Positions 48,468-52,542 of a stretch of DNA of 64,000 nt are shown in pieces; positions within the stretch are counted from its first letter, which is position 1, and each line of letters opens with the position of its first letter. The position numbers and the translations under genes are program-made. The notes below the pieces were generated by a model. It did not search any database, was not told the origin of the DNA, and saw only the letters and a program-made list of their open reading frames with translations. The DNA comes from Afipia sp. 64-13 (GTDB lineage Bacteria > Pseudomonadota > Alphaproteobacteria > Rhizobiales > Xanthobacteraceae), in contig MKUJ01000007.1 of assembly GCA_001897755.1 (NCBI GenBank), forward strand, positions 30,549-94,548, written 5' to 3'.

Positions 48468-51932
<3,465 letters not shown>

Positions 51933-51966: not shown

Positions 51967-51998
51967 TAAAAAAAGGACGCGCAACCGCGCGTCCTTTG
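51967..51998 (-). terminator. Minus-strand terminator between the tRNA-like gene and carB
   Basis: Minus strand AAAGGACGCGCGGTTGCGCGTCCTTTTTTT. Confidence 0.8.
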
Positions 51999-52259: not shown

Positions 52260-52335
52260 TGGAGGCCCGGCCTGGATTTGAACCAGGATAAAAAGCTTTG
52301 CACAGCTCCCGCGTAGACGTTTCCGCCACCGGGCC
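52260..52335 (-). tRNA. tRNA-Cys-like gene (probable anticodon GCA) with irregular anticodon arm and D-loop
   Basis: Minus strand GGCCCGG TGGCGGAAACGTCTACGCGGGAGCTGTGCAAAGCTTTTTAT CCTGG TTCAAAT CCAGG CCGGGCC T CCA: perfect 7-bp acceptor, 5-bp T-stem, encoded CCA, U73. Confidence 0.7.
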
Positions 52336-52542
52336 AAGATCAGGCTACTGCGAGATGTGGCGGTTCGCCACACCTGCCGCGGTATAAGGTTAAGGAACCG
52401 GGAACGGCATGTCTTTGGTTTAACCATCGGCCTTGTGAGGCTCCCGGGATCAGGGAGGGCGCGGGCGCCCGTGCTACACTTTTGCTCGAATCAGCATGGA
52501 TCCGTGTGCGTAGCCGCACCTGCATCATCAAGGGAGAACCCC

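Follow-up and report, generated by a model that had tools for sequence, protein, structure and literature searches.

A putative second, non-canonical tRNA-Cys with a 6-bp anticodon stem and a 6-nt loop in Afipia and its relatives

The non-proteinogenic tRNA-Gly species of Staphylococcus aureus, extra isoacceptors that are kept beside the normal ones, have an intact acceptor end but have lost GG at positions 18-19, which is replaced, and feed the cell wall as donors for peptidoglycan (PMC4052509). The selC* tRNA-Cys and allo-tRNAs (8/4 and 9/3) are minor tRNAs of the cysteine type with an unusual cloverleaf, U73 and GCA or UCA (PMC7609411). Non-canonical tRNAs such as tRNA-Pyl function in translation (PMC7609411). 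In Bacillus cereus, tRNA-Other, a tRNA-like pseudo-tRNA, is reported to be non-functional in translation and, in a single lineage, to flank a genomic island (PMC3399842).

The tRNA-like gene of Afipia sp. 64-13 described here resembles each of these RNAs in part. With the staphylococcal tRNA-Gly it shares the status of an extra isoacceptor, the loss of GG from the D-loop and the intact acceptor end, and that set is the nearest worked example for the cysteine donor model considered below; however, the staphylococcal tRNAs carry glycine and work with FemXAB, whereas the tRNA described here has no FemAB link, and anticodon-arm changes like those seen here are not described in PMC4052509. Compared with the selC* tRNA-Cys and the allo-tRNAs, it has a 12-bp acceptor branch of 7/5, neither 8/4 nor 9/3, a short variable region and no second CysRS, and its oddities sit in the anticodon arm and the D-loop. 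It has in common with tRNA-Pyl the longer anticodon stem and the D-loop without G18G19, but keeps the T-loop TTC, U8 and the cysteine determinants, whereas tRNA-Pyl has CUA, a 5-nt D-loop and its own synthetase; unlike tRNA-Other, it belongs to a broad family with cysteine determinants. A tRNA with this 6-bp/6-nt anticodon arm, conserved alongside the normal tRNA-Cys in rhizobia and purple bacteria that are well studied, appears not to have been described so far: the open-access literature yielded no account of it.

The gene lies on the minus strand of the window, that is, the whole stretch of 64,000 nt that was analysed (contig MKUJ01000007.1, positions 30,549 to 94,548). The first-pass annotation of this DNA had noticed an irregular tRNA-Cys-like gene, and its sequence and coordinates (52335-52260, minus strand) proved exact, as did the D-loop without GG (GAAACGTCTA), U73, GCA and CCA. 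The parts of the gene are:

52260..52335, minus strand: whole tRNA, 76 nt, with a 7-bp acceptor stem (GGCCCGG/CCGGGCC) and U73; homologues known
52262-52260, minus strand: encoded CCA
52314..52323, minus strand: D-loop, without G18G19
52292..52309, minus strand: anticodon arm GGAGCU-GUGCAA-AGCUUU, 18 nt, 6-bp stem and 6-nt loop
52304:52297, minus strand: sixth anticodon-stem pair, covarying
52299..52301, minus strand: GCA triplet at the anticodon position
52271..52287, minus strand: T-arm CCTGG-TTCAAAT-CCAGG, its stem the best-conserved part

ARAGORN calls the gene at 52260-52335 (minus strand) 'tRNA-?(Ala|Cys)', with the 2-base anticodon 'gc' and the same 6-bp stem and 6-nt loop, and the Rfam tRNA model (RF00005) gives it 46.3 bits (E 7e-8; cut-off 29), the weakest of 46 tRNA matches genome-wide. 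Neither the acceptor stem nor the T-arm, U73 or CCA is damaged, U33 is present in the window copy, and U73 together with GCA is the combination of a tRNA-Cys isoacceptor. It departs from the isoacceptor norm of a 5-bp stem and a 7-nt loop with U33 in having an anticodon arm of 18 nt, against the normal 17, divided into 6 bp and 6 nt, and the window copy also lacks the G18G19 of the D-loop/T-loop contact. On folding, the transcript is more stable than its dinucleotide shuffles (z -2.4), and in the window copy the 6-bp anticodon arm beats a 5-bp arm by 2.7 kcal/mol.

Among 114 distinct homologous sequences, separated by a simple parse on the length of the anticodon arm, the arm is 18 nt long in 89, 19 nt in 18 and 17 nt in 7. 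All 114 have U73, 105 have GCA at the loop (82 of the 89 with an 18-nt arm), and GG is absent from the D-loop in 101. Copies with the 18-nt arm retain U33 in 80 of 89 cases and usually have the loop GUGCAA or GUGCAU, the loop sequence varying between subgroups, and their D-loops take 39 different sequences. In the 19-nt-arm class, a 6-bp stem with a 7-nt loop predominates, and position 33 is C, G or A in 16 of the 18 sequences.

The anticodon stem had at first been described as ambiguous, with either an 8-nt loop or an additional U-A pair that leaves 6 nt; the additional pair is real and the 8-nt loop falls away, as judged by the covariation of the sixth pair. Across 36 distinct sequences, this pair is GC in 9, UA in 9, CG in 7, UG in 7 and AU in 3, and unpaired in 1, so that it is paired in 35/36 and is the most variable of all pairs, although it lies outside the fitted model of the alignment. 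It is Watson-Crick in 70/89 of the 18-nt arms, a level reached in 0/10,000 shuffles; shared ancestry inflates this result, but four Watson-Crick types are nevertheless present. By this covariation, the structure of the main class is a 6-bp anticodon stem with a 6-nt loop.

Pairing is close to complete in the other helices as well. In 23 Afipia-centred sequences, 459/459 stem cells are paired, and among the 36 distinct sequences (several genera and two other families), the alignment of which was fitted to a model and is hence biased towards that structure, 99.9% of 756 stem cells are paired, with 12 pairs changed on both sides compared to 5.5 in shuffles. The comparison with relatives that had been proposed for this gene thus yields compensatory changes in all stems. 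Mean pairwise differences per site are lowest in the T-stem (0.004), followed by the anticodon triplet (0.049), the acceptor stem (0.066) and the anticodon stem (0.359); GCA is stable although the surrounding stem varies freely. Judged by this pattern of substitution, the gene is maintained as an RNA under strong selection and is not a pseudogene.

An ordinary tRNA-Cys(GCA) is encoded in the same genome (C10:139044), where the first-pass annotation had advised looking for one, which fits its option of a second, non-canonical tRNA. By a pattern search, the canonical gene occurs exactly once in 78/80 genomes, nearly all of the 80 being carriers of the atypical gene, with the two exceptions in other families. 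This excludes the option that the atypical gene is the normal but degenerate tRNA-Cys, and hence the sole one, of the lineage. The canonical and atypical tRNAs share U73, GCA, the D-stem GCG/CGC, a 4-nt variable region, the 7/5 acceptor and T arms and CCA. The canonical form differs in that its anticodon stem has 5 bp, its loop reads CUGCAAA and its D-loop contains GG (all 21 canonical tRNAs taken in full have the CTGCAAA loop and GG), and also in its acceptor and T-stem sequences, the T-stem of the atypical form departing from it in C49-G65 and U51-A63. A tree of these short sequences, which limit its resolution, separates the paralogues from the canonical tRNA-Cys (SH-aLRT 95); a few second copies from other families (L225, L229, L232 and L233) fall nearer the canonical tRNA-Cys. 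The atypical tRNA is best described as an extra gene, a putative ancient paralogue of tRNA-Cys. Each of 22 genomes encodes one full-length CysRS. Further matches cover just a short part of a longer protein, as would be anticipated for related synthetases; a second CysRS was found in none of the 22.

Within the genus, the atypical tRNA was detected in most of the 28 congeners among 60 relatives searched with BLAST, and a pattern scan of genomes gave matches in Bradyrhizobium, Afipia, Nitrobacter, Rhodopseudomonas and Tardiphaga. By the acceptor/T-arm pattern, it is present in 145/300 genomes of the family and in 22/47 genera; some genera, for example, g49 and g52, have it in full and g50 nearly so, and g47, g65, g3, g36 and g48 are wholly without it. 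In a sample of 385 genomes of the class, the strong matches outside the family are canonical tRNA-Cys; the threshold was strict and would have passed over divergent forms. A sister form occurs in another family of the order (f35), where GAA replaces GCA and position 33 is G, but U73 points to cysteine despite GAA. This paralogue (L221-L224 and L226-L228) has the loop GGGAAC and is kept between a gyrA-like and a coaD-like gene, both assigned by eye from translations. An origin from mobile elements or phages was considered and dropped, there being no match to the atypical tRNA in plasmids, phages or viral contigs.

The surroundings of the gene contain the following features:

52384..52394, minus strand: CTTAACCTTAT, a degenerate version of the TTA-N4-TAA dyad that lies upstream, near -58, in most homologues
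52367..52370, minus strand: TGGC, conserved -35-like element at -35 to -32, from the column profile
52342..52347, minus strand: -10-like position, family consensus AATGAT, here TAGCCT, from the column profile
51967..51998, minus strand: intrinsic terminator in the carB leader, not part of the tRNA gene
48468..51932, minus strand: carB, carbamoyl-phosphate synthase large subunit, which lies next downstream on the same strand in most homologous loci

The TTA-N4-TAA dyad is found in 118/169 upstream regions (-70 to -40), compared to 0.9 expected after shuffling, and in 0/20 ordinary tRNA promoters of the genome that contains the window, that of the canonical tRNA-Cys included. An AATGAT-like box occupies -12 to -7. 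By eye, similar dyads also precede several copies of the sister family, which sit at another locus. The atypical tRNA has a putative promoter element of its own. Downstream, carB follows on the same strand in 126/162 loci, about 0.25-1.3 kb away and about 2 kb away in many Bradyrhizobium, and copies at other sites have unrelated neighbours. An operon partner was sought and none retained, as neighbours vary between loci and carB is kept without the tRNA. The terminator at 51967-51998 had been taken as an argument for expression of the tRNA, mistakenly: it adjoins carB and persists in genomes that lack the tRNA. The Afipia congeners G005 and G014, natural losses at the carB site, keep the carB leader with no trace of the tRNA, G005 also retaining the same upstream gene, and the terminator is present upstream of carB in other genera without the tRNA. 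The terminator therefore belongs to carB and provides no evidence for expression of the tRNA.

In some Afipia, a Ser-like tRNA gene lies 13-31 nt downstream of Cys-type copies with the 19-nt arm (L014, L015, L017-L021, L023 and L030). Its acceptor stem is 7 bp long, its D-loop contains GG, its variable arm is long and its T-stem bears one bulge; position 73 is U, as against G73 in the ordinary tRNA-Ser of the genus. Its anticodon arm consists of 4 bp and a 4-nt loop, UAAC or UAGC, without an anticodon; one divergent copy retains CGGAAA. ARAGORN does not detect it. The one viral match to its pattern, L342, has GGA in the anticodon arm and is without the features of interest. Both tRNAs are conserved, whereas the spacer and flanks are not, and the two genes apparently form a single operon of non-decoding tRNAs. 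What SerRS recognises in tRNA-Ser is the long variable arm, not the anticodon, and therefore the Ser-like RNA could be charged and yet not decode; the pair is what two chargeable, non-decoding tRNAs would resemble. The Ser-like gene is often followed by a terminator-like hairpin.

In our assessment, the best explanation, with a probability of slightly under one half (roughly 0.48), is that the atypical RNA is a Cys-tRNA that can be charged but decodes poorly and gives up its cysteine outside translation. It would be a tRNA-Cys paralogue that has gone from ordinary decoding and would be charged by the house CysRS, because it retains U73 and GCA, the two major cysteine determinants (PMC9976931). 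The malformed loop and the missing elbow contacts would make it a poor ribosomal substrate, and the Cys-tRNA might then serve a non-ribosomal acceptor via an enzyme that reads the acceptor/T half, since this half is the most conserved part. Constraint on the T-stem, acceptor stem, GCA and U73 is expected if the RNA is charged by CysRS and recognised through the acceptor/T half, and unexpected if accurate decoding is the main constraint; the malformed codon-reading loop suggests that the amino acid is handed to something other than the ribosome. U33 in 80/89 main-class copies, expected if some decoding or anticodon-loop recognition remains, counts against a cysteine donor, and so does GAA in place of GCA in the sister family, which should weaken recognition by CysRS. 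As a partner enzyme, FemAB finds no support: the FemAB-like domain PF02388, present in 4/24 genomes, does not track the atypical tRNA. PEARL (LanB-like, PF04738) was matched in 0/24 genomes, and the control genomes gave no match either.

A regulatory or decoy tRNA-like RNA, made from a regulated promoter, perhaps charged, and binding CysRS, EF-Tu or RNA partners or acting through fragments, would account for the dedicated upstream dyad and the poor decoding features, but it seems unlikely given that U73, GCA and the acceptor stem are retained as for charging and that the loop, the likeliest site of base-pairing, differs between subgroups. A specialised decoder would still read UGY, or perhaps a rare context, at low speed or when the cell is stressed, and its architecture would recall that of tRNA-Pyl, one of the non-canonical tRNAs that do function in translation. 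GCA in 105/114 sequences and U33 in 80/89 of the 18-nt arms are in keeping with such a role, which we nonetheless regard as quite improbable in view of the 6-nt loop, the loss of U33 from one subgroup and the sister family, the canonical tRNA-Cys in 78/80 genomes and the co-encoded Ser-like tRNA without any anticodon. A frameshift type, one of the initial options, is not favoured either, since most copies truly have a 6-nt loop, U33 is mostly missing from the 19-nt-arm class, and the sister family has G at that position.

Decay of a duplicated tRNA-Cys could be read from the lowest tRNA score in the genome, the loss from two congeners and a degenerate, gapped copy in a related genome (L077). 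Nevertheless, the compensatory changes in all helices, with near-total pairing over many genera, and the conserved promoter make a pseudogene or relic extremely improbable, and true decay looks otherwise (L077:2013-2082); as a general account it is refuted by pairing retained with compensatory change, and the compensatory changes and broad distribution dispose of the pseudogene option of the first-pass annotation. From its four-option interpretation, the second non-canonical tRNA survives, and the sole tRNA-Cys, the pseudogene and the argument from the terminator do not.

Extending the donor reading to both tRNAs, it is fairly plausible, though rather less likely than not, that a dedicated set of non-decoding tRNAs, Cys-type and in some species also Ser-type, feeds an undescribed non-ribosomal pathway of cysteine or serine transfer under its own regulator in Bradyrhizobium, Rhodopseudomonas, Nitrobacter, Afipia and their relatives. 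If the atypical tRNA is a non-ribosomal cysteine donor, this would imply a missing enzyme and a missing product. The gene also tests which parts of a tRNA serve charging and which serve decoding. A survey of 42,109 bacterial genomes left out tRNAs of undetermined type (PMC13092985), a class that could include a gene for which only a 2-base anticodon is called.

Several minor observations accompany these results. Anticodon loops such as GAUGCAUC in L079 and L084 are self-complementary and could form kissing dimers, a feature that is not family-wide. The degenerate Cys-type copy at L077:2013-2082, which contains deletions, lies beside an intact one and exemplifies a true pseudogene. In the carB leader (window 52040-51933 and L326-L332), a conserved TCTGGTCTAA-like promoter stretch occurs together with the terminator, which is G+C-rich, includes a T run, directly precedes the start of carB and is kept family-wide; this conserved arrangement suggests attenuation of carB. 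A sub-threshold Rfam match to Leu_leader corresponds to the carB-leader hairpin.
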